The notes under the pieces: generated by a model
The model's database searches: none
Told to the model about the DNA's origin: nothing
What the model saw: the letters and a program-made list of their open reading frames with translations, nothing else
Shown: piece after piece, positions 28,890 through 46,035 of the stretch
Layout of the letters: every line of letters begins with the position of its first letter
Position numbering within the stretch: position 1 is the first letter of the stretch
NCBI GenBank assembly: GCA_020002185.1
Contig: CM034538.1
Location: 69,010,060 to 69,074,059, forward strand
Length of the DNA: 64,000 nt
Origin: Paraescarpia echinospica
Taxonomy: Eukaryota > Annelida > Polychaeta > Sabellida > Siboglinidae
Direction of reading: 5' to 3'
Program-made: the position numbers and the translations under genes

Positions 28890-28895
28890 CACGCA
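28890..28895 (+). repeat. Polinton target-site duplication, left (CACGCA)
   Basis: CACGCA immediately precedes AGTAGATAGG and equals 46030-46035 after the right end. Polintons make 6-bp duplications. Confidence 0.85.
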
Positions 28896-29280
28896 AGTAG
28901 ATAGGAGGTACTGTTCGACCTCAAACTCCTACTTATAAAAAATAATTTAATGACCACTAAACGTTTTCGAGCATCTACTTATAAAAAAAGATCAAAGGCT
29001 TTTTTTGACACTAATTAGTTTCGGAAACCTACTTATAAAAAACACGATTGATGAGCGATGTAATTTGATACTAATTGGATGATTGATTACCCCTACACTA
29101 GAGATGCCACCTAGCGGTGAGTACAGAGAGTATTTTAGTCCTAGCGATCAACGTCGTACCTAGAGCGTGCTGACGTAAGCAATAATGCGTTTATCGCGCT
29201 AACCACGCTAAACCATTGTATAAACCACGCTAAAACCAATGTATAAACGTCGATTATCCAACGTTTAGTTTCGTACTTTT
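28896..29280 (+). repeat. Polinton left terminal inverted repeat
   Basis: 385 bp matching the complement of 45652-46029. I count about a dozen substitutions and a few indels, roughly 3 percent divergence. Three boxes of ctacttataaaa (28929, 28976, 29029) are spaced about 50 bp apart near the tip. The same boxes occur in the other TIR. Confidence 0.95.
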
Positions 29281-29403
29281 AGCGTCCTAGCGATCAACGT
29301 CGTACCTAGTGCGTGCTGACGTAAGCAATAATGCGTTTATCGCGCTAATATAACCACGCTAAAAACCATTGTATAAACCACGCTAAAACCATTGTATAAA
29401 CGT
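29143..29403 (+). repeat. Partial TIR duplication, left arm only
   Basis: 29143-29255 (cctagcgatcaacgtcgtac to the paired ccacgctaaa/ttgtataaac strings) is repeated at 29287-29403 with few changes. The right end has a single copy. Confidence 0.85.
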
Positions 29404-29719
29404 CGAACCCCGTTATGAATGGCGTACTGTACCCTATGTTGACAGCAAGAGCGACGACGACCGCTGCTGCTGCAGCGATAAGGCGCCGCCGCCGGCTGCT
29501 GCTCTAGTAAACTTTGACCCCTGGATGACAGCATAGCTGGCTAACGGTAAACAACGTTGTTCTGGTGGAAGGATTAAAACGAAACCAATGCGTTTAAATA
29601 CATCTAGTCGTGGGATTACAATGACAATCAAATGTATAAATACACTAACGTTCAGTAGGGTGTTTATGCATTGGAAACAGACTCGTGAAAACGTGAGTAG
29701 TGACTGAAATATGTTATTC

Positions 29720-30100
29720 TTAATCATGATAGGCGGCGAGCGTTCGGCCGCGGCCAACGGGTTGCCTGCTGCTCTGATAGGCGAGCATTCGGCCGCGGCC
29801 AACGGGTTGCCTGCTGCTCTCCGGCGGGGAACCGAAACCTTCCCGACGATACAGTTCGGGAGGCGTGATCGTTCTCCATAGTCCATTGGCCTGCTTTACG
29901 AGAAATACCCGTGCCAGATCGGGGATGATGTCATCGTCGTCAGAGCTGTCAGGCGTGACGTCGCGCGTAGGAGGTGGCGACGTGTGGATGTATGGAGCGA
30001 CCGCACATGTTGCCTGGGTCGACGTCGTCGATACGTCGGGCAGTTGGATCGGCCTATATGTCGTCGATATGCTGCTTGTAGGCAGTTGGATCGGTCTATG
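29720..30100 (-). CDS. Hypothetical Polinton left-end protein, minus strand
   Basis: A minus-strand frame stays open from 30247 to 29720. A good acceptor (tttattgtggttttatttcatag) ends at about 30098, so the AT-rich 5' part may be intron. The rest reads PIQLPTSSISTTYRPIQLP (a short internal repeat), PDSSDDDDIIPDLARVFLVK and GLWRTITPPELYRRE, and ends with two copies of SSRQPVGRGR. It is transcribed opposite to the other left-arm genes. No domain recognised. It is acidic in the middle and basic at the end, like a small regulatory or core protein, but that is a guess. Confidence 0.4.
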   Translation of the reverse strand, partial: HRPIQLPTSSISTTYRPIQLPDVSTTSTQATCAVAPYIHTSPPPTRDVTPDSSDDDDIIPDLARVFLVKQANGLWRTITPPELYRREGFGSPPESSRQPVGRGRMLAYQSSRQPVGRGRTLAAYHD

Positions 30101-30234
30101 AAATAAAACCACAATAAACAAAGGACCATTTAAACGATGAAATAAAATGAAACGGTAAAATTGTTTAAACGATGAATGAGACATTAAACGGTAAAATATA
30201 GTAAAAATAAAATGAGAGATATGCACGCACTTAT

Positions 30235-30500
30235 AAATAAAATTCATGCATGTTTAAACGGTAAAATACATGCAATTTAATGCGTACTTAAAACAACTGT
30301 AGTAAAAACGTGCATGCATTGTTTAAATAAAATGCATGCATGTTTAAACGGTATGTTACAACAACTGTAGTAAAAACGTGCATTTAAATAAAATGCATGC
30401 ATGTTTAAAATAAAATACATACTATTTATGTTGCGTACTACTGTAGTAAGCACTTACAGATGTTTAAATAAAATGCATGCTGCTTAAATGTCTTAACGTG
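30235..30500 (+). repeat. Repeated AT-rich units (aaataaaatgcatgcatgtttaaa)
   Basis: Four or more copies of ataaaatgcatgcatgttta interleaved with acaactgtagtaaaaacgtg strings. No open frame. Possible regulatory or origin-type sequence near the left end of the element. Confidence 0.75.
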
Positions 30501-30639
30501 GTGTTGTGGACGTGGCCATGTTAGATGGAGCGATGTGGAGGCGTCGTGCGCGCGTGTTTGTAAAAGTGTGTATGAAATGTGCGCGTCGTCAAACAGCGGC
30601 GGCGGCGGCGCATGACACTACGGCTTATCTTGATTGACA

Positions 30640-31095
30640 TGTGAACGGAGAACAAAGGATTTTTACAAACGATAAACGAAACGTTAAAAGCAAGAAATTA
30701 AACGTTATATACGATCACTACGGGGTCAGGAAACACGAGATGGATAGATATTAGAGAAATTCGCTGTAAAAGTCACATTTGACAATGGATGCACTGACGT
30801 GAACGCTAACTTTTTTCCTAAAACAAATTCCTCGGTAGACTAGGCGGAATGCGTTAAGCGCACATGTGTGACATCTGTTGCGCGTGACTTAACGAGATTG
30901 GAATGAGAACGGAGAACAATGGATTTTTACAAACAATAAATGAAACGTTAAAAGCACAAAATTAAACGTTGTATACGATCACTGTGGAGTCAGGAAACGG
31001 GAGATGTATCGATATTAGAGAAATTCGATGTAAAGAGAGATTTAACGGCGAATGTACTGACGTGACCGGAAACTTTTTTCTGAAAACAAAATGTC
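30640..31095 (+). repeat. Direct duplication of ~190 bp upstream of the RPA-like gene
   Basis: The segment from gaacggagaacaaaggattt (about 30643) to the acttttttcctaaaacaaa string is repeated from about 30907 with 85-90 percent identity. Each copy contains cgttaaaagca...ttaaacgtt, which also occurs at the inner edge of both TIRs. Confidence 0.85.
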
Positions 31096-31178
31096 TGAAA
31101 TGTTCGAGGCACTCACGCTGATAATTGAGTAAGATGACGTATTAGCGTGAAGTGCGCATGCGTGTTATTTGGAAAAGG

Positions 31179-31185
31179 TATAAAA
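31179..31185 (+). promoter_or_regulatory. TATA box of the RPA-like gene
   Basis: TATAAAA in the context aaaaggtataaaatgg, about 100 bp upstream of the ATG at 31282. Confidence 0.6.
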
Positions 31186-31281
31186 TGGTTGAGAAAAATG
31201 CTATATTGTATGACGCTGAATTTCTAACGTGTATTGTTTCTACAACAGCAGAGCAGCAAGCAGCAGACGTTCTTCCGCAAC

Positions 31282-32058
31282 ATGGCGGATGAAAGTCAAC
31301 AACAACAACAACCAAAAAAGACGAAGGCACCGCGCAAACAGTCGATGAAGGCGGCGGCGGCGGCCAGCAGCAGTCAACCTTCGCCACTGATTGCAGCCTT
31401 GTCAACGGGAGCGTCACCACCCGTTAAGCGCCCCGTCGCGCTCATTGCGGCCCCATTGACTGTCGGCCGAAAGCGGAGCGCTGAAGAGGCGTCCTTGGAG
31501 CAGCCCGACGAGACGGCCGAGCAGCCCCCGGTCCTGTCGCGGAGCGGTTCTATGGAACGTGAATCGTCGGCGTCGACGCGCGCCACAGTGGTGAGTCTGA
31601 GACATCTGAAATGTGCTGTCAACGGTGTGTATAAACTCCTGTCGCCCGTTATGATCGACCCCGTCTCGTACAAAGGTGAGCCCGGCACCACCTATTTGGG
31701 ATGTTCCCGTTGTCGCCGGAAATTGCAGACAAGCAAAGACGGGACCCTGATATGTCGAACGCACGGTGAAGTGTTTGTACCGAAATATTTCTTCGCGTTG
31801 CGTGTGATGGTGAAGGACGGCGAGGAGGAGGAAGACGAGCTTTGGCTTACGTTGTTCGATAGCCAAAAGTCTAATCTCGTCGAGTACACGGCCGAGTACT
31901 TGACGGAATTGAACGAGGAGGATCTCCGCGATACCGTGCTCGAGTTAGCCGGTACTAAAGTGGAGATTAGTGTGCAGAAGACGAGTTGGAACGGGGACCC
32001 CTCGTATACAGTCCGCACACTAAAAAGATACGTCATCGTCGACGACAACGATGACTAA
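31282..32058 (+). CDS. RPA70-like OB-fold single-strand DNA-binding protein
   Basis: 258 aa from the first ATG (MADESQ); an in-frame extension upstream has no ATG. Residues 1-100 are low-complexity (Gln, Ala, Ser, Pro) with two short basic patches. The C-terminal 150 residues have CSRCRRKLQ and LICRTH, a CxxC...CxxH zinc ribbon, then VPKYFFALRVMVKDG, LWLTLFDSQ and ELNEEDL. This order of ribbon, strand, LW-TLFD-Q and acidic helix is that of the third DNA-binding domain of replication protein A subunit 1 (DBD-C). It probably coats displaced strands made by the protein-primed polymerase encoded 1.6 kb downstream. Domain call by eye; the fourth zinc ligand is His. Confidence 0.7.
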   Translation: MADESQQQQQPKKTKAPRKQSMKAAAAASSSQPSPLIAALSTGASPPVKRPVALIAAPLTVGRKRSAEEASLEQPDETAEQPPVLSRSGSMERESSASTRATVVSLRHLKCAVNGVYKLLSPVMIDPVSYKGEPGTTYLGCSRCRRKLQTSKDGTLICRTHGEVFVPKYFFALRVMVKDGEEEEDELWLTLFDSQKSNLVEYTAEYLTELNEEDLRDTVLELAGTKVEISVQKTSWNGDPSYTVRTLKRYVIVDDNDD

Positions 32059-32085
32059 TGTGTTGTTGTCTTGTGTTGTTTGTAG

Positions 32086-33218
32086 GAGGAAAATTGGCCG
32101 CTACTGGTAGATTTATTGACGCACGCGAACGAACGACAACGAATGAGAGATCGTCGTGGTCTAGAACTAAGCAAGGAGAGCTTTGAACTATTAGCCGAGT
32201 CGGCCGAGCAATATATAAGAGCGTTTTGTTTGGCCTACGAAGCAAGCCTATTTTGTAGTAGTTTGATGTACTAACAGTTGTGCTTTTATATGCTTTAGGA
32301 AGTGCGCTGCGTACTGGAAAAAATGCTTGCAAACAACGAAAGGATTCGCGCTCAGTACGACGAGGTTGCCTCGTTCGTAAGAACGTTGTTGGAACGGAGT
32401 GTACAGGGGTCGATAAAAAGAGGAAGAGAACAAGAGGGAGGCGGACTAATCATAATAATGTGTTTGTAGGACGCTCTGATGCAACACACCAGACATGAGT
32501 GTATGAGCGACTTCCTACACGCGTTCCTGACGGTGATTCGTAAAGAGTAGAACTGCTTTGTGCTGTAGGGTAGTGGAGGAGTGCGTGACGCCCACGTATT
32601 GGAGGCGATCATCGAGGAGGCGCTGGGCGGCTGCTCGAACCGAATGCGCCCCGCTCCACCGACGTATAACGAAAGCCTGGGGACGATGGGACCGACGTGC
32701 TCGCCGTACTGGAGCGTATCGGAGGAGCTGGGGACGTGCCAACGGCAACTCGTCGTGCCGAGCCGGAGTCAGTTGGTCGGGCGTTACGAACGACTGGCGA
32801 TGGATCTCGTCGCCGAGACTCTCGGCGAAATGTTTCTGGAGAAGGCGCGGGATCATTGCGGGGTATGTGAACCGAATGAAGGCTGTCCATACGTTCACAT
32901 GCCCGGCTATCGCGCGGGGCGGCCAAATCGTGTATACATGCAACGTTTCGATAAGCCGGGCTGTATTGTGACGCGCTAATTCAACGGCGTCATCGAAACG
33001 TTCCTGCGTCGATCGCTCATCCCTTGTTTCACGAGACTAGTGCATATTCTACACGAGACTACGGTGTCGACTTCTTCCGGTGAACAGCAGCCGCAAACGG
33101 GCCGTGCAGGAGAATTGTATTTGGTGCAGTTTGTGTCGAACTGGTTATTGGGAACAAATTGGCGCGATTATATGAATCGCGTGCAACTCGAGTCGGCCGT
33201 GCACACGTACGTGTAACG
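32086..33218 (+). pseudogene. Split unknown Polinton gene with intron-like gaps and one in-frame stop
   Basis: Open segments follow acceptor-like sites: tgtttgtag (32085), a perfect branch site tactaac plus ttttatatgctttag (about 32300), tgtttgtag (about 32469) and ttgtgctgtag (about 32569). Segments encode ENWPLLVDLLTHANERQR, VLEKMLANNERIRAQYDE, DALMQHTRHECMSDFL and a long last part with AMDLVAETLGEMFLEKAR, CEPNEGCPYVHMPGYR and VQFVSNWLLGTNWRDYMN. The last part carries an in-frame TAA at 32977-32979 and then stays open to the TAA at 33216. Exon phases do not all agree, so exact joining is unsure. No known domain. Position suggests a replication or regulatory role. Confidence 0.5.
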
Positions 33219-33640
33219 CCGGAGCGGACTGGAATGAACGAACACTAGTAGAATAGAGAACATTTTATTAATATTTGCTTGCTATTGAAACAAAGGCTTC
33301 ACGACGCTGTGTTTGAATGTTGTAAGAGTACCGAATAAAACGTTGAAAATGTACTTTCCGTTTCCGAGTTACCTAGTTAGAAAAATTACCGCTAGTCGTA
33401 GTTATAAAAATGACCGCCATCCTCCCGCTAGATACCGCACACAGTTAGAAAAATTACCGCTAGTCGCAACCTCAGTTATAAAAACCACCACCGCTAGATA
33501 CCGCACACAGTTAGAAAAATTACCGCTAGTCGCAAACATAGTTATAAAAATGGCCGCTACCACATTCCTCCGTTAGAAAAATTACCGCTAGTCGTAGTTA
33601 TAAAAATGACCGCCACCACATTCCTCCCGCTAGGGTGTAC
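33219..33640 (+). repeat. Four ~62-bp repeats with GTTATAAAAA boxes upstream of polB
   Basis: gttagaaaaattaccgctag followed by tcg and, 2-8 nt later, agttataaaaa occurs four times at about 33377, 33435, 33510 and 33570. The spacer between copies varies. Each copy brings a TATA-like box on the coding strand of polB. Confidence 0.85.
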
Positions 33641-33677
33641 TTACCACCACCACCACCGTCACCGTCACCGTCGCTGT

Positions 33678-33685
33678 TATAAATA
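33678..33685 (+). promoter_or_regulatory. TATA box of polB
   Basis: TATAAATA 31 bp upstream of the polB ATG at 33716, closer than usual, implying a very short leader or an upstream start site. Confidence 0.5.
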
Positions 33686-33715
33686 GCGGTGCTCGAAAAA
33701 ATATCATTAGAGAGA

Positions 33716-36700
33716 ATGCCACCTACTAGATGGCAATGTCCGAAATGCGGGCGCTATTTCGTGAAACAGTCGACGTTAGAACGACACGTAAAGAGTTCGA
33801 AAAGTTGCGGCGACGAAGCGCTATGCGTAAAACGTCGAGAGTGTCCAAAATGTGGCACGATGTACAGTACGCGTTACGCTATGCTACAACATCTGAAGCT
33901 GCGGTGTGGCCGTCAGACGTCGCCAACTCCTGGTAGTAGTAATGAATCAGTAGCGGAGGCGGCAGCCGCTAGGGCGCCGTCGCCGCCGCCCGACGATCTA
34001 CAGCGTGTCGTGGACGAGCACATGCGTAGCATAGAGACGTCGGTAGCGCGCGGTGCCGTGCAGTCGCGTTACAACTATCGTATGACCTCCTGTACGAGTA
34101 CGCGCGTGCTCGAACCGCGTCTGAGTGAAATGTTTCGCGCGCAAAAGAACGCGTTTAAAATTAACGTAAGCTATGGTTTTGTATTACGCCACAAGGTGTC
34201 GGGTCGGTACCGATATTTTCATTCTTCGTGTATCTGTTGCGGTCGCCTCCTCGAAACACCCGCCCTAGTTACCGATAGCTGTTCATTCGAACGATTCCTC
34301 GACGCCGTGCGCACGACCGACGTACTGCAGTACGCCATCGCGCAGCGTCCCGACTCGGGATGGATCGTCGAGCTCGTAACTAACGCCACCTACTTCGTGA
34401 ACGTCATCATCAATCATCCTATCGGCTGCGTTGGCGTGACGACGCTTCCCGCCTACGTGCGCCTCAACAGGGCCATCGTGACGTTGACGAAAGATCATCG
34501 AGGCACGCCCTACGACGACCATCTGTGTCTCTTCCGATGCATCGGACTCCACCTGCAAGGTCACCGACGAGGCGAAATTATCCGCCACATCGATACGAAC
34601 CGTTTAACGAAAGTCGCTAAACGTCTGCACGCGCAGTATTGTCGCGCCGCGCGCACGTCGGCCTCGAACGGGGTGCACCTGAACCAACTGGATCGCGTGG
34701 AGACGGTTTTCGGCATCAACGTCGTCGTCTATCGTCGACTGACGAACGACGTCGCCGAACTAGTCCGTCGATCGCGCGAAGCGCACCCCACGATGCTGAA
34801 CGTCAACCTGTACGAGTCGTACATAAGCGATCCGCGCGCGTACATGAAAACGTACAAGTGCGGGAAATGTGGCAGCTCCCTCTGGCGGGACGTGTGCCAT
34901 TTACGACGTCACGAAGCGACGTGCGAAGGTGGCGTTCGTCACGTGTTCCCCGGCGGCGTCTACCGACCGTCGCCGTCCGTTTTCAAGCGGCTCGACGACG
35001 AAGGCATCGACGTCGGTGACGACGACCTGCGCTACTACACGTACCGCGCGACGTTCGATTTCGAGTGCTATTTCGCCGATAACGATCTGCCGACGGATAC
35101 CGACAAATGCCGCTGAATCGCGCGACACGAACTGCTCAGCGTGAGCGTCGCGTCGAACGTGCCCGGTCACGAAGCGGCGCGGTGTTATGTCACGACCGGG
35201 CGATTCGACGGAACTCGCGCGTCGCCTCATCGACGACCTGGAAGCGGTGAGCGCGGCGGCGTGCGCGATTCTACGTCCCCGCTACGACGCGACCTTCGAA
35301 GCGCTCGACGCGCTCGACGCCGACTGGGGGCGACGATGCATCGACGACGACGCCGACGCGTCCACGTACGCCACTCTCGCCGACCGACTGTGGACGTACC
35401 GTCGTCAAATGCCCGTATTGGGATTCAATTCGGGTAAGTAGGACCTGAATGTCGTCAAAAAGTACTTGACCCCCCTGCTCATAACCGACGACGCGCAGCG
35501 CACGTCGTCGGCGTTTACCATTAAACGTCAGAACAATTACATGTGCCTGTCGACGACGACGTTGAAGTTCCTGGACATAATGAATTACCTCGCGCCCGGC
35601 GTTAGCTACGATCGCTTTCTGAAAGCGTACGGATGCTCGGCAACGAAGGGCTACTTTCCGTACGAACATATCGATACGTTGACGCGTCTGGACGAAACCG
35701 CCCTGCCGTCGCGCGAAGCTTTCTACAGCCAGCTGAAACGCGAGGGAATCTCCGCGGAGGCGTACGAGATTTGCGCGACGGCGTGGCGTGACGAGGGCAT
35801 GACGTCGATGCGCGATTTTCTTGTGTGGTATAACAATCGTGACGTGGCGCCGTTTCTCGAGGCCGTCGATCGCCAGTTCGCCTTCTATCGGCGCCGACGT
35901 ATCGACATGTTCAAGGACGCCATCAGCGTACCGGGGTTGACGTTGTTGTATCTGTTCAACGACCTGCCGACGTCGATCCATTTCTCGCTCTTCAACGAGC
36001 CGAACAAAGTTCTGCACCGTCTGCTGCAGGCGCAGATCGTCGGCGGCCCGTCGATCATCTTCGCGCTCCACCACGAGGCCGACGTGACGTCGATTCGAGG
36101 CGGCGACGGCGCGCCGTGCCGATCGACAGTAGGCTTCGACGCAAACGTCCTCTATCTGTGGGCGATAATGCAGGAGATGCCGACGGGCTGGTACACGCGC
36201 CGACGCGCTGAGAACGCCTTTCGAGCGGAACGCGTGCACCACTACGGTCGTATGGCCGTGGAGTGGTTGACGTGGGTGGAGGCGGAAACCGGCGCGCGTA
36301 TACGTCACCAGTTGAACGGACGCGAGAAGCGCATCGGAAAGCACCGAGTCGACGGCTGGTGCGCCGCCACGCGATCGGCGTATCAATTTCACGGCTGCTA
36401 TTTTCACGGCTGCCCGACGTGTCAGGCGCACGTGACGACGAACGCCGTCAACGGTCAACCGATGACGACGCTGTACGCCGCGACGATCGCCATGAGCGCC
36501 TACCTGCGCCGTTTCGTCTACGACGTCGTCGAAATGTCGGAGTGCCAGTGGCATACCGTGCGACCGCCGGCGGTGCCGACACCACCCGACGCGTCACGAT
36601 GGCAACCACCGCCGAGCATTACGCTCTCGACGATACTGGAGGCAGTGCGCGACGGCTCTCTGTTCGGCCTCGTGCAGTGCGATATCGCCGTGCCGGAAGC

Positions 36701-37871
36701 GCTGCGCGACAAGTTCGCCGAGATGCAGCCCGTATTAAACGTCGATATCGTACGCGACGATCTCAGCCCGTTCATGCGCGACTACGCCGAGTCGCACGAT
36801 CTCCTCACGCGACCTCAACGGACACTCGTCGGTAGCAACTTCGGCGCCGCGATCGTGCTTGCGACGCCGCTCCTACCCTGGTATCTGGCGCACGGTCTCG
36901 TCGTCGAGCGCGTCTACCAGATCGTCGAGTACGCGCCGATCGCGTGCTTTCGCCGCTTCGGCGACGCGGTTTCGACGGCGCGACACGAGGGCGATATCGA
37001 TACCGACAAATCGATCATCGCCGATACCTTTAAACTTCTCGGCAACAGTTCCTACGGGAAAACGATTACGCGCGTCGATCGGCACAGGGAAATCAAGTAC
37101 GCCACGCCGGTCGGCGCGTCGATGCTCGTTAACAATCAGCGCTTCCGGCAACTCGACGTCGTCATCGACGACGCGCTGTACGAGGTGGCGCTGAATAAGC
37201 GCAAAATCGTCTACGGCCTGCCGATACATATCGGCTATTTCGTATTGCAGTACGCAAAATTGAGAATGCTGGAATTTTATTTCGATTTTGTCGACGCCTA
37301 CATTCCCCGTCCGCTCTTCCAGTACTGCGCTATGGATACGGACTCGGCGTACATCGTCCTAGCCGGACGTGACGTCGACGCGCTCGTACCGGAAGAACGT
37401 CGCGAACACTACTTCCGGAATCGTTCGCTCTGGTTTCTGGCCGAATGCTGCGACGCGCACGTGGACGCCTACGTACGACGGCGCGTCGCCGGACTAGCGT
37501 GGGACGACGCGGCGGCCTGCTGCGCGCGCCGACGCCTGATCGATCGTCGAACGCCGGACCTCTTCAAAGAAGAGTGGCGCGGCGACGGAATCGTGGCGCT
37601 GTGCAGCAAGACCTACTACTGCTTCGGCGGCGCCGCCGATCGGAAGTACAGCACGAAGGGACTGCGCAAGCGACAGAACGCCGACATCGACGAGCACACC
37701 TCCCTCGCCGTACTGCGCGACCGTCGCAACGGCGTCGGCTGGAACCGCGGTTTCCAAGTGAAAGACTCGTCCGTGTTGACGTACGTTCAATAGCGCGCGG
37801 CGTTGAGCTACTTCTACGCTAAACGCCGCGTGCTCGACGACGGCGTCACTACGGCGCCGATACTCGTCTAA
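33716..37871 (+). pseudogene. Protein-primed family-B DNA polymerase (Polinton PolB), four breaks
   Basis: Start chosen at ATG 33716; the frame upstream begins only with GTG. Order: two C2H2-like fingers (CPKCGRYF, CPKCGTMY), a block with DDHLCLFRCIGLH, a third finger (CGKCGSSLW), exonuclease motif I FDFECY (35054-35071), exo II region GFNSGK, polymerase motif A FDANVLYLW (about 36135), motif B KLLGNSSYG (37032-37058), motif C MDTDS (37332-37346) and KTY (37608-37616). The enzyme copies the element from a protein primer at the TIR tips. Breaks: TGA 35114-35116, a 1-nt frameshift near 35200, TAG 35439-35441 and TAG 37791-37793, after which 25 codons remain to TAA at 37869. All catalytic residues are kept, so decay is recent. 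Confidence 0.95.
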
Positions 37872-38019
37872 CTCGTAAACAACTCTCGTCTAACTCGTCT
37901 ACTACTAACCTAACCCCCACCACCCCCCCCCCTAGGGGTAGTTTCTGTATGTATGTATAGGTAGGGTAATAATAAACACCAACAATTGTGTTTTTTCTGT
38001 ACACGTAAAAGCGGCATAA
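37872..38019. terminator. Convergent 3' region between the two arms
   Basis: Contains a run of C, a gtatgtatgta run and AATAAA at about 37971-37976 that could serve polB. The minus-strand protease gene ends at 38020, where attaaa-like sequence on its strand may act as its signal. No gene. Confidence 0.45.
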
Positions 38020-38475
38020 TTAATGAGGTTTTAATAAATCGTATACGAGACAGTCATTGGTCACCCGATTGGTGCCGAAAAGGCTCTGGAACGTCGTCAA
38101 CGGCATACCGCGACATCGGAGGAGAAGGTAGGCGACGCAATATTGTCCGCACACGTTAGAGATGACGCTCTGCAGCAGCTTGTCGTTGTACGTCCACGCG
38201 TCGCCGCAGTGACGGCGCAGGAACGCGCGGAAGTCGGCGTGCAGCGGCGGCAGACCGTACGAATCGAAGTACTCGCCTCGTCGGTCGGCGTCCACGTAGA
38301 CGGCCACCCAGTGCTGTCCCGGTTCGCCGCCGTCGTCGGTGTTGCACACGAAGGCCGTCGGGTAGGTAGCGGCGGCGGCGACAGTAAGTAGCGCGTCTTT
38401 AGGCACGACGCCGACGACGATACGTTTAGCGTACGTTTCGCGTTCCAGACGACGCATCAGTTGAAACGTATCCAT
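38020..38475 (-). CDS. Adenain-like cysteine protease (maturation protease)
   Basis: 151 aa from ATG 38475, two bases past the capsid stop. Motifs of the C5/adenovirus-protease family are visible: GQHWVAVYVD with the catalytic His, YFDSYG with the Asp, a Gln at LQSV and VCGQYCVAYL with the nucleophilic Cys. In Polintons this enzyme is thought to cleave capsid precursors, as adenain does. The frame is intact. Any 5' extension is unlikely because the upstream frame lies inside the capsid gene. Confidence 0.92.
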   Translation of the reverse strand: MDTFQLMRRLERETYAKRIVVGVVPKDALLTVAAAATYPTAFVCNTDDGGEPGQHWVAVYVDADRRGEYFDSYGLPPLHADFRAFLRRHCGDAWTYNDKLLQSVISNVCGQYCVAYLLLRCRGMPLTTFQSLFGTNRVTNDCLVYDLLKPH

Positions 38476-38477
38476 AG

Positions 38478-39731
38478 TTACCAGTCGTACACGACGTTCC
38501 GGTTCCGGTCGATCTCCATCACCGTCTCGAATTCCGCGTACACGAAGACGTTCACCGGAAGCGGTAGCGGCGTCCCGAAATGCATTTCGACGCCCACGCT
38601 CCCCTGACGCACGACGTTGAAATGATCGCCGTCGCAACAGTCGGGGGTCAGGTCGAAACCGAAGATGGTGTAGCCGGCACCGAAGTCCGTGCGCGATACG
38701 TCGTTCCCCTCGTCCTCGAACGCCTTTCCGGTCGCCTCGAAGAGATTCATGTAGCTCCGCACGTACCGGTTGTGCGGGAAGTCCGGCTGCAGCGGCTTGC
38801 TCTGCACCTGACGTCCGTCGACGACGAGCGTCAGGAAGTTTGTGTCGTTGTGACGCGCGTCGAACGGATTTATAGTGTAGTCGCCGTTGTAGGCGACGTT
38901 ATCGATCATCATCAGGAAGAGGCGTTTCGGAATCGCACCCTTGTACAAGTTCTCGTGCGTGTGCGATAGCGTACCCGCCGTTCCCAACCCCCACGCTTTG
39001 ATATGTCCCATCTGGACGGCCGGGTTCAACTTCACTTTTCGCACGTGCAGTCAAATCGCCTGCAGCACGACGCGCCACCCCGGTACGGCTTGCGCGCCCA
39101 TGAGCGCGAAGGCGTCCTTCGCGCGCATTATGCGTATTTTCTTGTCGACGCCGTTCGGTATGTGTCTGTTTAGCATAAACGCGTCGATGTGCAGGCGTCC
39201 CATCATCTCCACCTCGTTGCTATCGGCAGTCATGACGCGTCGTGCCTCGAACCCGACGTTGGCGTTGCCGAGCGTGTCCATCCGTCCGGCGGTGTCTTTG
39301 TACCACTACGAACCCGTGAGATGCGAACGTTTCGCGTCGCTACCGTAACTTAGCAACGTCTCGATGTAGGCCCGGTACGCGTACGTATTGGTCGACGGCG
39401 TCACGAGGGTGTTGTTCAGCGTCACGTCGATTTGACTGATCATCGAATGCAGGAAATTGTTGACCGGCGCCACCGCGGCGGCGGCCGCCAGATCGGTACC
39501 GTTCCCCTGCTTCACTTTGAAGCGCACGTACAATTGAACACTCCCCAGGTCCGTATAGTCTTCGCCCGAACCCGGGACGAGGAACTCGATAGGGCCGCCG
39601 GCGTCGAGAGTCGTCAGCGGCTGGTAGACGGTCCACTGACTACTCTCGATGCTCGTCTGCGTCACCGGTCCGCTCAACAGCTCCAGTTCGGTCTTCACGC
39701 CCTCGCACGTCGAACCGTTCACGAACGCCAT
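38478..39731 (-). pseudogene. Major capsid protein, double jelly roll (two in-frame stops)
   Basis: One frame runs from ATG 39731 to the stop at 38478 (418 codons including two premature stops): TAG at 39306-39308 and TGA at 39051-39053. Conserved Polinton capsid blocks: VYQPLTTLDAGGPIEF, VNNFLHSMISQIDVTLN, NTYAYRAYIETLL, MGRLHIDAFMLNRH, GAIPKRLFLMMIDNVAYNG and FPHNRYVRSYMNLFEATG. The fold is the hexon-like double jelly roll. Each stop is compatible with a single substitution, and coding sense continues on both sides. The protease gene follows 2 nt downstream. Confidence 0.93.
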
Positions 39732-39739
39732 CGTCGTCG

Positions 39740-40250
39740 AATATGTCCGTTCGACGCGCTCTCTTCCGCCTACTGACGACCGTCGCCGCTAGGCGCGCTC
39801 TCTTTATGCCGCTGCCACCGCGGTGCTGGTGCGTTTGTTTCTTCCGTAGGCGCGGTACGCGTACGTATTGGTCGACGGCGACACGAGGACGTTGTTCAGC
39901 GACACGTCGAGTTGACTAAATATCGTATGCAGGAAATTGTTGACCGGCGCCCCCGCGGCGGCGGCCACCAGATCGGTACCGTCCCCCCGCGTCACTATGA
40001 AGCGCACGTACACTCGAAGATCCGCATAGCCCGAACCCGGGAACTCGATAGGATCGCCGGCGTCGAGAGTCGTCAGCGGCTGGTAGACGGTCCACTGACC
40101 GCTCTCGATCACCGGCGCGCTGTCCATCGTCGTTACTCGTCGAATATGTCCGTTCGACGCGCTCTTTTCCGCCTACTGACGGCCGTCGTCGCTAGACGCG
40201 CTCTCTTTACGCCGACGCCGCCGCGGGGACGGCGCTGCTGCGTTTGTTTC
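39740..40250 (-). repeat. Tandem duplication spanning the pX-like tail and capsid start
   Basis: The stretch 40250-39843 (end of the pX-like gene plus the first ~95 codons of a capsid copy) is repeated as 39838-39340. The strings cgaatatgtccgttcgacgc and cctactgac(g)gccgtcg occur at 40140 and 39748. The breakpoint lies at about 39838-39843, where capsid sequence runs into the pX-like tail. Copies differ by several substitutions and small indels. Confidence 0.9.
39804..40127 (-). pseudogene. Truncated extra copy of the capsid N-terminus
   Basis: 107 codons from ATG 40127. They repeat the capsid start (VYQPLTTLDAGDPIEF, VNNFLHTIFSQLDVSLNN, NTYAYRAY) and then read GRNKRTSTAV from the duplicated pX-like tail in another frame. 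The segment before NFLH has lost about ten codons compared with the full gene. A product could still fold only as part of the first jelly roll, so a function is doubtful, although an interfering fragment cannot be excluded. Confidence 0.85.
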
Positions 40251-40579
40251 TTTCTCTTCTGATTCTTCTTTGGCGGTGCCTGCGAATTCAATAGGCCGTC
40301 GAAAAGATCGGCGGCGGCCTCCTTCTCGCGCCTTTTTATCGACTGTTTCAGATTGCCGCCGGCGACGACGTCGCGCGCCACGTGCATGCCGGTGTTGAGC
40401 GCGCGTTTTCCCAACGCCAACGCGCCTCTCTTGATAAGCGGCATGGCGCTTCGAAACAGACTCCCGAAGAGATTACCCAGACCGTGACCTCGTTGACCCC
40501 GAGCACCGACGAAGACCGGCAGCTGTCCGCCGACCTGACGAACGTAGTAGTCCACGTACGGGTTCTTCGACGGCGACAT
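40133..40579 (-). CDS. Basic pX-like minor virion protein
   Basis: 148 aa from ATG 40579. The first half has YVDYYVRQVGGQLPVFVG, GLGNLFGSLFRSAMPLIKRG and ALNTGMHVARDVVAGGN, a Gly/hydrophobic pattern conserved in Polinton minor virion proteins likened to adenovirus pX. The C-terminal half is strongly basic (KKNQKRKKQTQQRRPRGG), fit for binding DNA. The role as a core or membrane-active virion component is by analogy. It lies upstream of the capsid genes in the same direction. The frame is intact; its tail is duplicated downstream. Confidence 0.7.
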   Translation of the reverse strand: MSPSKNPYVDYYVRQVGGQLPVFVGARGQRGHGLGNLFGSLFRSAMPLIKRGALALGKRALNTGMHVARDVVAGGNLKQSIKRREKEAAADLFDGLLNSQAPPKKNQKRKKQTQQRRPRGGVGVKRARLATTAVSRRKRARRTDIFDE

Positions 40580-40583
40580 GTTA

Positions 40584-41462
40584 TTAAAACAATTTCGATT
40601 TACAGCGTCTGAAGTGAAGCGTCGTCACCACCTTCCCCTGCTCGAATGGTATCGGTTGGCCGTGATCATCTCTTATATCGACTTCGATCTCGTCGAATTG
40701 ATTCCGCAGCAGCTTCACGTATTGCACGCGATCGAACGTTTCCGAAATAACGTCACCGTTCTCACCGCGGACGGCGATGTTTCGAAGGAGCGGCGCGTAC
40801 ACGTCACCGACGACGCGCGGTTCCACGAGATCCGTGTACACGTACAGACTCTCGATGCCCGCCGACATGGTCACCGTATCGCGACCTTCGTACTCGAACG
40901 TGTACGAGGCGGGCGACGTGCTGATGACGGGCCTCACCGCCGGCTTGGGACCGTACGCGGACGAACTCATGATCGTGTTGCTATGGAAAACTAGCACGTG
41001 CCTCAGACGGCTCGAATGAGGTATGATAAATTCGACACCCGGCGACATACGTAGCGTAAATCGGTTAGAGACGGCGCAGTATTCTAGCACGGCCTTGACC
41101 TTCCTGGTGGATAATTTATCTAGCGCCTCGTTGATCCTGTTCAACAACGTATAAACGTTGTTGTAGAAACCGTGAGGAATCGTCGTCTGACGATATATCA
41201 GCACGGTCGAGCCGTCTTTGTCTATCTGCGTGTAAACACCCGGTTGGCCCGCCGCGCAAGTCAGATAGAATTAGGCGTCCTTCTTTCTCACGTTGTACCA
41301 CGTGTGCGGATACTGTACCGACACCGCGCCGCATTCCCACTCCCCCGACAGGTCGAAACGTCGCGGCAACATCGTGACGTAGTGCGTTAACGTATTTTCG
41401 GGGTGACGTTTCATAGACGCGTTGCTCGGTAGCGTCAGGTAAAAGTCAGACGAGACAGCCAT
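40584..41462 (-). pseudogene. Minor capsid (penton-like) protein, one in-frame stop
   Basis: From ATG 41462 the frame reads SDFYLTLPSNASMKRHP, GEWECGAVSVQYPHTWYN, then TAA at 41271-41273 and on with FYLTCAAGQPGVYTQ, and ends VTTLHFRRCK at 40584. FYLTLPSN at the start and YPHTWYN after the first strand pair are signatures of Polinton minor capsid proteins, single jelly rolls thought to form the pentons. The first ATG overlaps the 3' end of the upstream membrane-protein gene by 17 nt. The lesion is a single stop with sense preserved after it. Confidence 0.88.
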
Positions 41463-41799
41463 CGTGTCGACGTTCGCCGCCGCCGCCGACACTCATAGAC
41501 GGACTCGGAAGCAGGTAACCGAGAGAGCTGCTCAACAACGCCGTCCACAGGTTGGAGTCACCTTGACCTTTCGTCAGATTGTATATACTAACGGCGATGT
41601 CGAAGTACAGGACGACAACCTGACAGAGGAATACGATTTCGGCCTTAGGGCATTCGTTGCCGCAGATTCGCCATGGAACGGGTTCGGCAGTGGTTGTAGC
41701 GTCGATGGAGTCGTCGTGCTCGTCGACGACGGATGATTGCTCGGCGTCGGCGTTCGTTCGACGATCGCCACTCGAGGTAGTTTCGTCGTCGTCGCACAT
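41446..41799 (-). CDS. Conserved Polinton membrane protein
   Basis: 117 aa from ATG 41799. An acidic, Thr/Ser/Asp-rich N-terminal 50 residues is followed by CGNECPKAEIVFL, a hydrophobic segment (CQVVVLYFDIAVSIYNL), NLWTALLSSSLGYLLPSP and a Gly/Arg tail. Cys-x3-Cys-Pro before the membrane segment and the LWTALLSS-LGYLLP block recur in Polinton proteins of animals. One or two membrane passes are likely. It might act in virion envelopment or exit, but nothing here proves it. The gene ends inside the start of the minor capsid gene. Confidence 0.65.
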   Translation of the reverse strand: MCDDDETTSSGDRRTNADAEQSSVVDEHDDSIDATTTAEPVPWRICGNECPKAEIVFLCQVVVLYFDIAVSIYNLTKGQGDSNLWTALLSSSLGYLLPSPSMSVGGGGERRHDGCLV

Positions 41800-41920
41800 C
41801 GTTGCGCCACTGCGCGCTGTCGATGCAGCAGGGACCTTTATACGGTAAGAACGAAGATCGTTGCATATTCCCGCCTCGTGCAGTCGCCAGCAGCCGGTGT
41901 GACGCATCCAACTATTCATC

Positions 41921-43051
41921 CTATAGGTCCACGAGCGACTCGGCGTCGATACAGCTGTTGAATGAGGCCGGATATCCGCTCCATTTTACGAGCGCCTCCG
42001 AACCGCCGCCGCCACGACGCCGACGACGCCGTAGAACCGCCTCCACGCGATATAGTTTGTCTTTCGGAACGACTACGCGTTGTAGTTCCGGTTCGTAGAA
42101 GGTGCCCTCTATCGGCGTCTCGGCGTCGTCCTTCAGGCGATAAACGGGCGGTTCGGACGGGTGCACCTCTACGACGGTGAACAGCTCCTCGCTCCAGTTA
42201 GCCATGTATCCTTTTTTTAATTGACCCCTCGTCTTGCTGATACGTACGCGATCTCCCACGCGTAGTTTCGGTTTTCGTCGTCGTTGATCGTCGCCGCCAC
42301 CCCCTTACAGTCGTTGCCATACGGCCTCCTGATTCGTCGCGTCGACACTCGCCGGCGTCCTACCGATGCTTCGGTGGTAGGCGTTGTTGTACGATCGCAC
42401 GAAATCCGGTAACGCCTCTACGTAGCGCAGCGTTTCGTGTTTCGTAAAATAGCTCCACAATCGCGTCTTCAAAGTTCGATTAAACCGTTCCACGACGCTC
42501 GCTTTGGTCTCCTCGTTATGCGTCACGAAATGAAGAACGCCGCGACTCTTTAGCAACGTTTGCAGGGGTCGGTTCAAAAACTCGCTCCCCTTATCGGTCT
42601 GCAGCGTGTTCGGCGTCTCGTCGTCGTCGCTCAGCAGGCGCTCGAAGGCCGCGACGAGCGACGCGCCGGACTTATTCTTCAACGGAACGCACCACGCCCA
42701 CTTCGAAAACACATCGATCACCGTCAATAGGAATGTTATACCGTCGTTGTGCGTTTTCAGTCTAGTCAAGTCGACCAGATCGGCTTGCCACTGCTGGTTT
42801 CGACCGCCCACGATGACGCGATGTCGTTTGAAATGACGTCTAACCGGTTTGTGTAGAGTATAGGCGTCCTGCGACGCTAGCCACCTCTCGACGGCCGGAC
42901 GTCGGAGCTTCGACCATCGGTGCAACGCGTCGACGCCTCCGTAACTCCCCACCCGTTTCGGATCGAAGTACACGTTATTCAGTTCGTCATCGTCGTCGTT
43001 TCGTTGCTGTCGAGGCTTTCGATTTGGACGACGACTCCACCCGGACACCAT
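41921..43051 (-). pseudogene. Retroviral-type integrase with C-terminal chromodomain (one in-frame stop)
   Basis: The frame runs from ATG 43051. RNase-H fold catalytic residues: Asp in WQADLVDL, Asp in LQTDKGSEF and Glu in VVERFNR, the last two with 34 residues between by my count. The core ends VWQRL, then TAA at 42305-42307. The same frame continues with a basic link, VGDRVRISKTRGQLKKGY and NWSEELFTVVEV (the SH3-like/CT region) and a chromodomain (YRVEAVL, ALVKWSGYP, ESLVDL). Where chromodomains usually have Trp after Asn-Ser/Thr, this copy has Cys (FNSC). The enzyme inserts element ends and makes the 6-bp duplications. A basic insertion of Arg and Gly sits inside the chromodomain. Confidence 0.93.
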
Positions 43052-43152
43052 GACGACGACGACGACGATGATACGATGATTATTATATAGAGTGCGATAA
43101 GCGCGATGGTGAAGCCGACGATGATGATGATGATCGCGCGTCGTGACGGCAT
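42979..43152 (-). CDS. Small single-pass membrane protein
   Basis: 57 aa from ATG 43152: MPSRRAI, then a strongly hydrophobic helix rich in Ile (about 25 residues), a Ser run (7), and a polar tail. It overlaps the integrase start by 73 nt in another frame and starts at the last base of the preceding gene. Short membrane proteins are frequent in Polinton right arms, but I do not recognise this one. Chance coding in a CAT/GAT-repeat region is possible. Confidence 0.4.
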   Translation of the reverse strand: MPSRRAIIIIIVGFTIALIALYIIIIVSSSSSSSWCPGGVVVQIESLDSNETTTMTN

Positions 43153-43928
43153 CACGACAACGTATCCCACGCCGTGACGCCCAACAAAGAGGATCGTTGT
43201 CTGCGTTTAGGTTCGCCTCGCTTCCGACGACGTCTCCACTCCGTCGGCGCTGATGAACTAGACGTCGTCGGCATCATCATCGCCTCTTCTAGTAGCTGCT
43301 TCTGTCGTCGCTCCATGTACGATCGATAGCGCGGGTTGCCTACGAATTCCATAGGGATATTCATATCCTTCATGTGCAATCCGAACTCCCGCCATCCTAC
43401 GGGCGTCGTCGTCTTCGATCTCGTTCGCATGAGATCGTTTACTAGATCTACCATATTACTCCCCGCGATCGTTTTACCGTCGTACACGAATTCACCGCGA
43501 TCGTTCCATCGAGACAACGGATCGGCTTTCATTTTTTCGATAAGCAGTCCCGCCTTCCCTTTCAACATTTTAGGCATACTGGCTATGATTTCGCGCTCTA
43601 TCACCTCCGACGATGGTGGCGCCACCGCCGCCGCCGCCGCCACCGCCGGTACCGCAGGCGTCTCGCCGCCGCCGCTGTTGACCACCGACACGCGTACCGG
43701 TTGCGCCGCTCGAGCCGCCTCTATCGTATTGTACCGACTCAGCAGTTGATTGTACGACGCTACCTTTTCGCGTTCCGATAAATCCGAACGTTCTAGAATG
43801 TCCTTCATGTCGCTGTCAAGGTTACTCAGCACACGTGATCGGGGCGTGCTCGGCGACTGATCGACACGTGGCAGAAGACTTGCCACCAATCGTGGATCGA
43901 CCAACGCCATCTTCTTCGCGTACTGCAT
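43152..43928 (-). CDS. Conserved Polinton protein of unknown function (258 aa)
   Basis: Start taken at ATG 43928; one codon earlier is only TTG. Blocks typical of Polinton-encoded proteins in animals: KKMALVDPRLVASL, LSNLDSDMKDILER and EREKVASYNQLLSRY (helical, charged) in the N-terminal third; an Ala/Pro-rich linker; then PKMLKGKAGLLIEKMK, DRGEFVYDGKTI, NMVDLVNDLMR and PVGWREFG in the second half; and a basic tail. I recognise the arrangement from many invertebrate genomes but no activity is established. It lies between the 136-aa protein and the integrase in the late gene cluster. The frame is intact. Confidence 0.65.
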   Translation of the reverse strand: MQYAKKMALVDPRLVASLLPRVDQSPSTPRSRVLSNLDSDMKDILERSDLSEREKVASYNQLLSRYNTIEAARAAQPVRVSVVNSGGGETPAVPAVAAAAAVAPPSSEVIEREIIASMPKMLKGKAGLLIEKMKADPLSRWNDRGEFVYDGKTIAGSNMVDLVNDLMRTRSKTTTPVGWREFGLHMKDMNIPMEFVGNPRYRSYMERRQKQLLEEAMMMPTTSSSSAPTEWRRRRKRGEPKRRQRSSLLGVTAWDTLS

Positions 43929-43931
43929 CAA

Positions 43932-44342
43932 TCACCCTCCGCTGCCGCCGCCGAACACCTGTCTGAGCAGTGGCAGGCTAACTGTACTCGCTAACGGCGC
44001 TAGCAGGGCCGTCAGAAAACCACCCGCACCCTTTTGCAAGATGACACGCTTCTGCTTACGCGTAACGTGTTTGTCGACGAGTTTACGCAGGTGATCCCGA
44101 TATTTCGACAATACGCGTATCTGTTTCGGCGACAACTTCACGTTCCCTTTCAGAATGTTGTACGCGCAATCGCACAGACTACAAATGAGACCGGTGTCCG
44201 CGTGGGCGAGTAGGGCTTTTCGCAGAGCGATGTTCCGTCTATGTCTCTCCAACAGCTGCAGGGCGATGATGTGTCTCTTTGTTTGATTCGTCGGTCCCGC
44301 CACCTTCGGTCGTCTCTTCGCTGCCACCGCGCGCCCCGTCAT
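43932..44342 (-). CDS. Conserved small Polinton protein with hydrophobic C-terminus
   Basis: 136 aa from ATG 44342. Basic start (TGRAVAAKRRPKV), then ALQLLERHRRNIALRKALL, ICSLCDCAYNILKGNVKLS, QIRVLSKYRDHLRKLVDK and QKGAGGFLTALLAPLAST. The C-x-C-A-N-L-G-N pattern followed by a basic helix and a QKG-GFL--LL-P tail is common to Polinton proteins. The C-terminal stretch could contact a membrane or be a protease substrate. Function unknown. The stop is 3 nt before the next gene ATG, which implies a tightly packed late cluster. Confidence 0.6.
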   Translation of the reverse strand: MTGRAVAAKRRPKVAGPTNQTKRHIIALQLLERHRRNIALRKALLAHADTGLICSLCDCAYNILKGNVKLSPKQIRVLSKYRDHLRKLVDKHVTRKQKRVILQKGAGGFLTALLAPLASTVSLPLLRQVFGGGSGG

Positions 44343-44380
44343 AGCGACTAATAAACGGACGCGTCGTCTTCTCTCTCTTC

Positions 44381-45042
44381 TTATAGTCCGCCTACGCCAC
44401 CACCACCACCACCACCACCACCGCCACCCTTCCGTACGTACACGTACTGAAGGCGATCGTCCGGAAATATGCACGTACGCAGGCGCATGTCCTCTTCCGT
44501 TTCCTGTTTCAGATCCACGAATAGATAGCCGTACGCCGACGACGTCGCGTCTTTGAAAGCCTCTATCATGTAGTTGACCTTTCCCGGGTACATCTGTACT
44601 AGTGACCTACTTGACCGGCGTCTCGAGGGCTCTTGAATAGCACTATGTATTGAGCGTTCAGGCTGATTGTACGGTTTTCTTTCCCTTTCGGAAACATGTT
44701 CTGTCGCAGTTGTACGACCGACGTATTACAATGATGACTTTTTTTAGTAAATAGTACCGTCACCCGGCTATCGGTCTCCTCCATGAGGTCGTCGAGTACT
44801 AGAAGCGTTCTCGCTTTACCGTCTAAACGTTTCGGATCCGGCAGGCCGTCTACGAACTCTATTTTCGAAGACATAGACGCGTAGCCGCTCTGCCACTGTC
44901 CGTAACACCACAGGATTTTCTCCGGCGGCGGATCGATCATAGTGTCGTAACGTATCAAACGCTCGACGAACGTCGTCTTACCGCATCCCGTAGGACCGGC
45001 TACTATACACGTAAAAGGATGCTTCAACGACGGTTCGTTCAT
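44381..45042 (-). pseudogene. FtsK/HerA-type genome-packaging ATPase (one frameshift)
   Basis: From ATG 45042: a short N-terminus, Walker A GPTGCGKTTF, then KIEFVDGLPDP, Walker B LLVLDDLMEE and sensor-like NRTISLNAQYIVLFKSPRDAG, the classic Polinton/adenovirus-IVa2/poxvirus A32-like packaging ATPase. The frame then hits TAG at 44599-44601. The expected C-terminal part (PGKVNYMIEAFKDATSS, YGYLFVDLK) continues in the next frame to 44381, so a 1-nt loss near 44601 breaks the gene. The C-terminus ends in a run of Gly caused by a GGT/CCA repeat (about 44397-44427). Confidence 0.93.
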
Positions 45043-45094
45043 TTTTCACGACTGAACGACGAACACTTTTTTACGCTTCTTTATAACCATCGCG

Positions 45095-45524
45095 CTACTT
45101 CATCAACAGTTTACCGAGCGTGTTCTTCCCCACATCACCCGCGATTCCGCTATCCCAGAAACCTTCCCTACTCGCTACCCATTCCACCAATTCGGCGTCC
45201 CCGGTCGCCAACAGTGCAGCCTTCAAATCGCTCGATCGATCAAACTTCCTCCTCAACAACATCTTCATACATCTCACCCTAACGTCGGTCCATTTGGTTT
45301 CCATTCTCTTTTTTCGAATGTCGTAACCGCGTCGTTTCGCTGCATAAGAGCTTCGCGAACTTTTGATTGTTTCGGCACATTCCACGTCGTCGTACAATAT
45401 CGCTTTCCTATACTGATAGGCGTGCTCGACGGATCGAAAGCCCCGACCGAACGCCGACACGCGACACATACATATTCGACAAGAACGACCGCGATCCACC
45501 AAACCTTATAGGCGACGACATCAT
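45095..45524 (-). pseudogene. NADAR-domain protein (ADP-ribosyl-glycohydrolase type), one frameshift
   Basis: Family signatures are clear: FRSVEHAYQYRKA (with the Glu of the active pocket), KWTDVRVRCMKMLLRRKF, LLATGDAELVEW, FWDSG and GKNTLGKLLMK at the end. The upstream part, from ATG 45524, has SFLSNMY, matching the usual N-terminal strand, but it lies in the neighbouring frame; a 1-nt break sits near 45470. Total length (~143 codons) equals a stand-alone NADAR domain. Bacterial NADARs reverse guanine ADP-ribosylation in DNA made by DarT1 toxins; others act on riboflavin intermediates. It is the last gene before the right TIR, transcribed away from it. Its coding composition matches the element, so it is cargo and not host. 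Confidence 0.85.
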
Positions 45525-45651
45525 ACCGACTACCGATCATCCGCTACCGCCACCGCTTATAAACTGCGACTCGACCCCTAGGCTCCTAAGGTCAATGGTT
45601 TTACCCCGGTTATAGGTGGCAAGGTCGACGACATTTCAAAAACGAAACGTT

Positions 45652-46029
45652 AAAAGTACGAAACTAAACGTCAACGTTTATACAATGGTTTTAGCGTGGT
45701 TTATACAATGGTTTAGCGTGGTTACCGTCATAAACGCATTATTGCTTACGTCAGCACGCTCTAGGTACGACGTTGATCGCTAGGACTAAAATACTCTCTG
45801 TACTCATCGCTAGGTGGCATCTCTAGTGTAGGGGTAATCAATCATCCAATTAGCATTAAATTACATCGCTCATCAATCATGTTTTTTATAAGTAGGTTTC
45901 CGAAACTAATTAGTGTCAAAAAAAGCCTTTGATCTTTTTTTTATAAGTAGATGCTCGAAAACGTTTAGTGGTCATTAAATTCTTTTTTATAAGTAGGAGT
46001 TTGAGGTCGAACAGTACCTCCTATCTACT
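45652..46029 (-). repeat. Polinton right terminal inverted repeat
   Basis: 378 bp, inverted match to 28896-29280, ending CCTATCTACT. Three ttttataagtag boxes are kept. An 8-bp gap near the inner edge and about a dozen substitutions separate the two TIRs. Confidence 0.95.
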
Positions 46030-46035
46030 CACGCA
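46030..46035 (+). repeat. Polinton target-site duplication, right (CACGCA)
   Basis: CACGCA directly after CCTATCTACT, identical to 28890-28895. The context is itself a CACG repeat, so the duplication alone is weaker evidence than the uninterrupted paralogue at 28439-28460. Confidence 0.8.

Follow-up and report, generated by a model that had tools for sequence, protein, structure and literature searches.

Proteins with a NADAR domain are already known from phages, giant viruses and RNA viruses (passages of PMC9503650) and from retrotransposons (passages of PMC12477816). Passages of PMC11125620 report tests of four NADAR subtypes from E. coli hosts or phages, all of which hydrolysed guanosine-ADP-ribose and none thymidine-ADP-ribose; what NADARs do in animals is there called unclear. 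Here we describe a NADAR gene belonging to a Polinton (Maverick), a virus-like DNA element that synthesises itself, located in a 64,000-nucleotide stretch (hereafter the window) of contig CM034538.1 of the siboglinid annelid Paraescarpia echinospica. The gene has a constant slot next to the packaging ATPase gene, is present in high copy number, has kept its catalytic residues and has evolved under constraint between subfamilies.

The NADAR gene and its slot

The gene occupies positions 45095–45524 (−) of the window, between the packaging ATPase (44599–45042) and the right terminal inverted repeat (TIR; from 45671), and is identified by its profile match, its frames and a slot common to the sampled copies. 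Open reading frame (ORF) 45095–45502 (−) matches PF08719 [1.6e-21, 77.7 bits; curated cut-off 35.1 bits] and contains the motifs quoted in a sequence-only reading of the window, which had proposed a NADAR domain here. That reading was right about the gene and mentioned neither a frame change nor an early stop. The ATG at 45524 opens a NADAR-type N-terminus in a frame other than that of the remainder (to 45095), and the stop falls a few codons early relative to P0001 and to ten sampled copies of the window's own subfamily. Because P0001, a 66%-identical relative scoring 89.4 bits against PF08719 (above the cut-off), has the N-terminal part and the remainder in a single frame, the window copy, which as it stands has more than one open frame, is broken by one frame change. 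The frame change does not appear to be private to the window copy, since the match of another genomic copy, L115 (C12:58171937–58173464; match at C12:58172937), to the window query also starts at residue 1. L115 appears to share the change, and an already broken copy may have multiplied.

The two TIR arms (28896–29406 and 45671–46029) enclose the gene, as had been claimed, and neither the NADAR nor the ATPase profile has a match in the window outside the element. Its codons are nearer to those of six other element ORFs (log-likelihood −164.1) than to those of three ORFs of the window which we take to be long interspersed nuclear element (LINE)-like (−187.0), a single comparison without a significance test. 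The GC content is 50.7% for NADAR, 53.9% for the element, and 41.1 and 36.9% for the measured flanks. The gene thus agrees in place and codon usage with the element's own gene array, which the earlier reading had also maintained.

NADAR is a high-copy gene in the 1.08 Gb genome. Scanned with PF08719, the genome yielded 2556 first-look candidates, 150 of them were scored, and all of these exceeded the cut-off; with the window NADAR as query there were 2749, and the 150 scored consisted of its own copy and 149 others at 86–95% identity. First-look candidates are unconfirmed genes, and the two lists overlap in some places. Most of the 150 scored matches have open frames of about 155 codons, with an internal stop in 17. 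With 149 further close copies scored in the genome, the occurrence of NADAR in this element is far beyond chance.

A first sample was made up of twenty 10-kb regions from the top 21 rows of the PF08719 list, one short contig being skipped. In seven of these the ATPase follows NADAR immediately, with both genes on one strand; in eight others a different Polinton gene is present in the region, and five have none. There is no background rate against which to set the 15/20 for Polinton genes, but the constancy of the slot is independent of that figure. Among 15 places spread down the 150 window-NADAR matches, that is, the best NADAR matches, the ATPase adjoins NADAR in every case, the envelopes of the two hidden Markov model (HMM) matches being 34 nt apart in 14 and overlapping in one; the NADAR domain is in a single frame in 12 and the ATPase in nine. 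Conversely, 15 of 150 listed ATPase matches were taken at about every tenth row together with 800 bases upstream, and NADAR is upstream in all 15 (a near-whole domain in a single frame in 13, in two pieces in one, partial in one). Since the latter list is 98–100% identical to the ATPase relative P0222, this result covers the window's own subfamily only. The NADAR-then-ATPase slot is also present in a further region, L114, and at L097:4668–5856 a tandem pair of NADARs precedes the ATPase, the second copy in broken frames. The sharing of NADAR by many Polintons, which the sequence-only reading had proposed to check, is borne out by 15/15 NADAR-picked copies, 15/15 ATPase-picked copies and 7/20 first regions. 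Of the two outcomes which it had set in advance as refuting, a lack of HMM support and a host gene fused by chance, neither occurred; the second is ruled out by the 149 close copies and the constant slot.

A model of P0001, chosen rather than the window copy, has a mean predicted local distance difference test score (pLDDT) of 92.3. Its best PDB matches are E. coli YbiA (2b3w) and a Phytophthora NADAR (8bau; PnNADAR), with template modelling scores by query length of 0.80 and 0.73, respectively. Residues were read from an alignment of 45 rows (40 genome-locus pieces, the window and four database proteins) with PnNADAR numbers in our own mapping. Passages of PMC11543638 describe the roles of PnNADAR E43, K50, E125 and the ligand-contacting R79. 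The catalytic positions are kept, E43 and K50 in 42 of 43 letters each and E125 in 41 of 42, the exception being an Ala. Going by sequence, the Glu at the E125 position, rather than Asp or His, places the element NADARs in the YbiA subfamily.

NADAR types, phylogeny and constraint

The type of the window, type A, includes L097, L102, L107, L108, L111, L114 and L115–L129, with P0001 and P0113, both naturally intact, near to it. Type B includes L094–L096, L098–L101, L103–L106, L109, L110, L112, L113 and P0114; its frame is often longer (about 287 codons) and bears an N-terminal extension. Type B stands ahead of an ATPase in L099 and L106, and at other loci genes for the protease (PRO), the major capsid protein (MCP) or DNA polymerase B (polB) occur within some kilobases. 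Many type B loci have only about 1.2 kb around NADAR in common with L099, with the downstream end near the same point. In L095 and L103, long inverted repeats carry type B NADAR in each arm and enclose no Polinton gene; these loci are possible non-autonomous elements.

A third type is formed by P0115 and L130, which are 51% identical. L130 lies on a 4,088-bp contig and holds NADAR and an RPA-like gene [PF08646, 1e-9], whose product is 28% identical to the RPA70-C-like protein of the window (31234–32058). L131, a neighbouring piece of the same contig, matches the N-terminal part of the polB of Polinton L001 [5.5e-69] and is 40% identical to the window polB ORF over 197 residues; its Pfam matches are mostly to C2H2 zinc fingers, none being to a polymerase domain. 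L130/L131 and L001 are in one assembly, titled endosymbiont of the tubeworm Escarpia laminata. L001, L002, L130 and L131 thus represent animal-type Polinton genes in an assembly filed as a bacterial endosymbiont, and these contigs are probably host DNA.

The organism-named relatives of the ATPase, among 120 listed of 615, all come from this tubeworm-symbiont assembly, and the shellfish setting suggested by the sequence-only reading is unsupported. IMG/VR gave no relative for the window NADAR, P0001, the integrase, P0114 or the ATPase alignment. In 80 listed of 409 confirmed NADAR loci, a phmmer search with six Polinton proteins of L001 detected no Polinton gene, and weak ATPase matches appeared only in L003–L005, outside those 80.

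In a larger tree of 100 rows and 146 columns, whose bootstrap had not settled, the window NADAR, P0001, P0113, P0114 and P0115 cluster together (support 100/98), separately from the remaining 95 NADARs, which were taken from databases and IMG/VR. A smaller tree, which carries a long-branch warning, groups the element copies with P0001, P0113, P0114 and P0115 at 99/94 (92/74 without P0115) and does not resolve type A as a clade. Type A and type B ATPases are placed apart, those of type B with database Polintons including those of the Escarpia assembly (100/98). NADAR is accordingly present with two ATPase lineages in the genome of the window and on one Polinton contig of the tubeworm-symbiont assembly. 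Since types A and B differ in ATPase lineage, either the gene is ancient and has been lost in places, or it was transferred from one lineage to another.

For five type A copies, the ratio of nonsynonymous to synonymous substitution rates (dN/dS) of NADAR is 0.18–0.35 between subfamilies and 0.54 for the only close pair (L107, L108). The ATPase gives 0.07–0.46 among five type A copies, partly on fragments. Silent sites are saturated between type A and type B NADARs. Ten copies of the window subfamily have a mean dN of 0.043 and a mean dS of 0.049 (dN/dS about 0.87), over 44 of 45 pairs, one being left out because of its low dS. As this young subfamily is near neutral, the constraint must be older than the recent burst.

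Proposed function

We consider it somewhat better than an even prospect that these elements constitute a Polinton family in which a YbiA-type NADAR is a standing accessory gene whose product strips ADP-ribose from the bases of nucleic acids. Base de-ADP-ribosylation by the Polinton enzyme is suggested by the family biochemistry of PMC11125620 taken together with the YbiA-type fold and residues. In the lineage of the window the gene sits immediately upstream of that for the packaging ATPase and shares its strand. Its product would be an ADP-ribosyl glycohydrolase clearing ADP-ribose from the bases of the element or of its transcripts, guanine being the best candidate. An ADP-ribosyltransferase of the host or of a microbe would have attached the ADP-ribose, and clearing it would let replication and packaging of the element go on, with possible protection against host defence. 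The sequence-only reading had pointed to guanine ADP-ribosylation in clams (CARP-1), and this is real (passages of PMC11209040).

Several points weigh against removal of ADP-ribose from bases. DarT (PF14487), part of the setting first proposed, has no match in the genome in six frames, in a search that could miss an intron-split gene and did not extend to other transferases. The R79 position, a ligand contact in PnNADAR, is Tyr or Lys in 39 of 42 letters and Arg in one. According to passages of PMC11125620, whether a NADAR protects cells cannot be foretold from its activity in vitro, which does not suffice for protection. Polinton L001 is without NADAR on its 11.8 kb. Lastly, the dN/dS of the young window subfamily is close to neutral, as for dead insertions, and lends no support to a function of those copies. 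On the whole the sequence-only interpretation is partly supported.

Two other activities remain in consideration from passages of PMC9503650 and PMC12477816. One, which we regard as unlikely though worth keeping in view, is that NADAR destroys soluble NAD-derived signals, e.g. cyclic ADP-ribose variants from host NADases, and is thus an anti-signalling gene; the cited passages, however, favour macromolecular targets in animal RNA viruses, and the activity measured for the family is hydrolysis of guanosine-ADP-ribose (passages of PMC11125620). Less likely still is an action mainly on RNA, by which ADP-ribose would be cleared from element RNA or RNA ends. An RNA-acting role has been suggested for the NADARs of RNA viruses and retrotransposons, NADAR-like folds occur in nidovirus replicase proteins, and NADAR domains are found in Gypsy Pol and Tx1 LINE ORF1 proteins of elements with an RNA stage (passages of PMC12477816); Polintons, on the other hand, are DNA elements with a DNA polymerase. 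This proposal overlaps the explanation we prefer, which allows transcripts as substrates.

NADAR might also be passive cargo, trapped once and multiplied only by the element's own multiplication. The near-neutral dN/dS within the window subfamily would agree with this, as would the five of 20 first regions in which NADAR has no other Polinton gene within 10 kb; in two of these five, NADAR lies in inverted arms. The dN/dS between type A subfamilies and the occurrence of NADAR with two ATPase lineages speak against it, and we judge it improbable. That NADAR is a metabolic gene, a housekeeping N-glycosidase of the YbiA sort, is most improbable: YbiA, which with the Phytophthora NADAR makes up the pair of relatives of solved structure, has an activity on reactive riboflavin intermediates (cited in PMC11543638, seen in passages), but no riboflavin gene is among the element ORFs scanned with Pfam and YbiA itself also cleaves guanosine-ADP-ribose (passages of PMC11125620).

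Returning to the removal of ADP-ribose from bases, a wider form of this proposal can be put forward tentatively. NADAR may be near-core in a large Polinton radiation, with perhaps thousands of copies in the ATPase slot; at least three types of it would have been kept across deep divergences, type B having also spread by way of inverted-arm elements that lack other Polinton genes. It would then be a selfish counter-defence against an animal immunity that ADP-ribosylates foreign bases. The figure of thousands rests on the 2749 unconfirmed first-look candidates, and we know of no description of such a base-ADP-ribosylating defence in worms. The gene set of an animal Polinton family gains, in high copy, an enzyme of the kind that removes ADP-ribose from nucleic acids, and its retention by virus-like elements points to host or microbial ADP-ribosylation of nucleic acids or to ADP-ribose signalling. 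The Polinton NADAR offers a direct route to look for such ADP-ribosylation.

The element and its described relatives

The Polinton spans 28896–46029. A repeat search found TIRs at both ends, with arms of 271 nt at 97% and 111 nt at 92% and outer ends at 28896 and 46029. The left TIR (28896–29406) starts AGTAGATAGG, so that the element begins with AG; the right TIR is at 45671–46029. A putative 6-bp target site duplication (TSD), CACGCA, lies at 28890–28895 and 46030–46035; similar repeats surround both copies, and it is weak since the left one stands amid CACGCA-like repeats.

On the plus strand are an RPA70-C-like protein [31234–32058; PF08646, 1.5e-8] and a putative polB (33689–37793), the latter in at least two frames (33689–35116 and 35466–37793) and identified by eye from its likeness to the L001 polB [1401 aa; PF03175, 2.8e-9]. 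The window pieces alone gave no Pfam polymerase match. On the minus strand, PRO, an adenovirus-type protease (38020–38637), is suggested by likeness by eye to L001 PRO and by place; the L001 protein matches Peptidase_C5 below the cut-off and the window ORF has no Pfam match. A gene in pieces at 38478–39731 (39306–39731 and 38478–39044) resembles by eye a 437-aa ORF of L001 and presumably encodes the MCP, a name with no supporting Pfam match. Based again upon likeness by eye and place relative to L001, we take 40584–41204 (−) to encode the minor capsid (penton) protein, likewise with no Pfam match. ORFs 39306–39731 and 39804–40127 (−) resemble each other over a stretch near TVYQPLTTLDAG, where the start of the capsid gene seems to have been partly duplicated.

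The element has both a retrovirus-type (rve) integrase and an A32-type packaging ATPase. The former, with a chromodomain, is in two ORFs at 41921–43051 (−) [PF00665, 1.3e-13; PF00385, 1.3e-5]. The ATPase at 44599–45042 (−) [PF04665, 2.9e-6] is frame-broken near its 3' end, with the rest in another frame, and P0222 is 99% identical to it over 77% of the query without interruption. Since, besides NADAR, the ATPase, integrase/chromodomain, capsid and polymerase ORFs are all spread over more than one frame, the window element is a decayed copy.

We found no paper on NADAR in Polintons, adintoviruses or polinton-like viruses in a literature search that lay mostly outside subscription journals and judged Maverick together with NADAR on title and abstract. 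The word NADAR is absent from the adintovirus survey PMC11071296, the words polinton, maverick and adintovirus are absent from the available passages of PMC9503650, and those of PMC11287256 add nothing on Polintons. On this evidence a standing NADAR gene appears not to have been described before in a Polinton family.

As in adintovirus-like Polintons/Mavericks generally, the window element has TIRs, a possible 6-bp TSD, an rve integrase with chromodomain and an A32-type ATPase, together with polB, PRO and capsid genes by likeness; it differs in having NADAR and an RPA-like gene. Unlike the window element, L001 (a contig cut at both ends) has polB instead of NADAR ahead of the ATPase. With the NADARs of the YbiA subfamily (2b3w, 8bau) the element proteins share the fold, the catalytic Glu/Lys/Glu and Glu at the E125 position, whereas they form a separate clade with Tyr or Lys at the R79 position in 39 of 42. 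The DarT1-NADAR toxin-antitoxin systems have the NADAR domain in common with the element; their NADARs, however, have Asp at the E125 position (passages of PMC11543638) where the element has Glu, and no DarT match accompanies it in the genome of the window (PF14487, six frames, introns not modelled). In nidoviruses and giant viruses the fold is likewise carried by viruses (passages of PMC9503650), but as a polyprotein domain in the RNA viruses and as genes of large genomes in the giant viruses. The NADAR retrotransposons (Ectocarpus Gypsy and Crassostrea Tx1 ORF1; passages of PMC12477816) resemble the Polinton in that NADAR is spread by a mobile element; there it is part of Pol or ORF1 in elements with an RNA stage, whereas the Polinton NADAR stands as a gene of its own in a virus-like DNA element.
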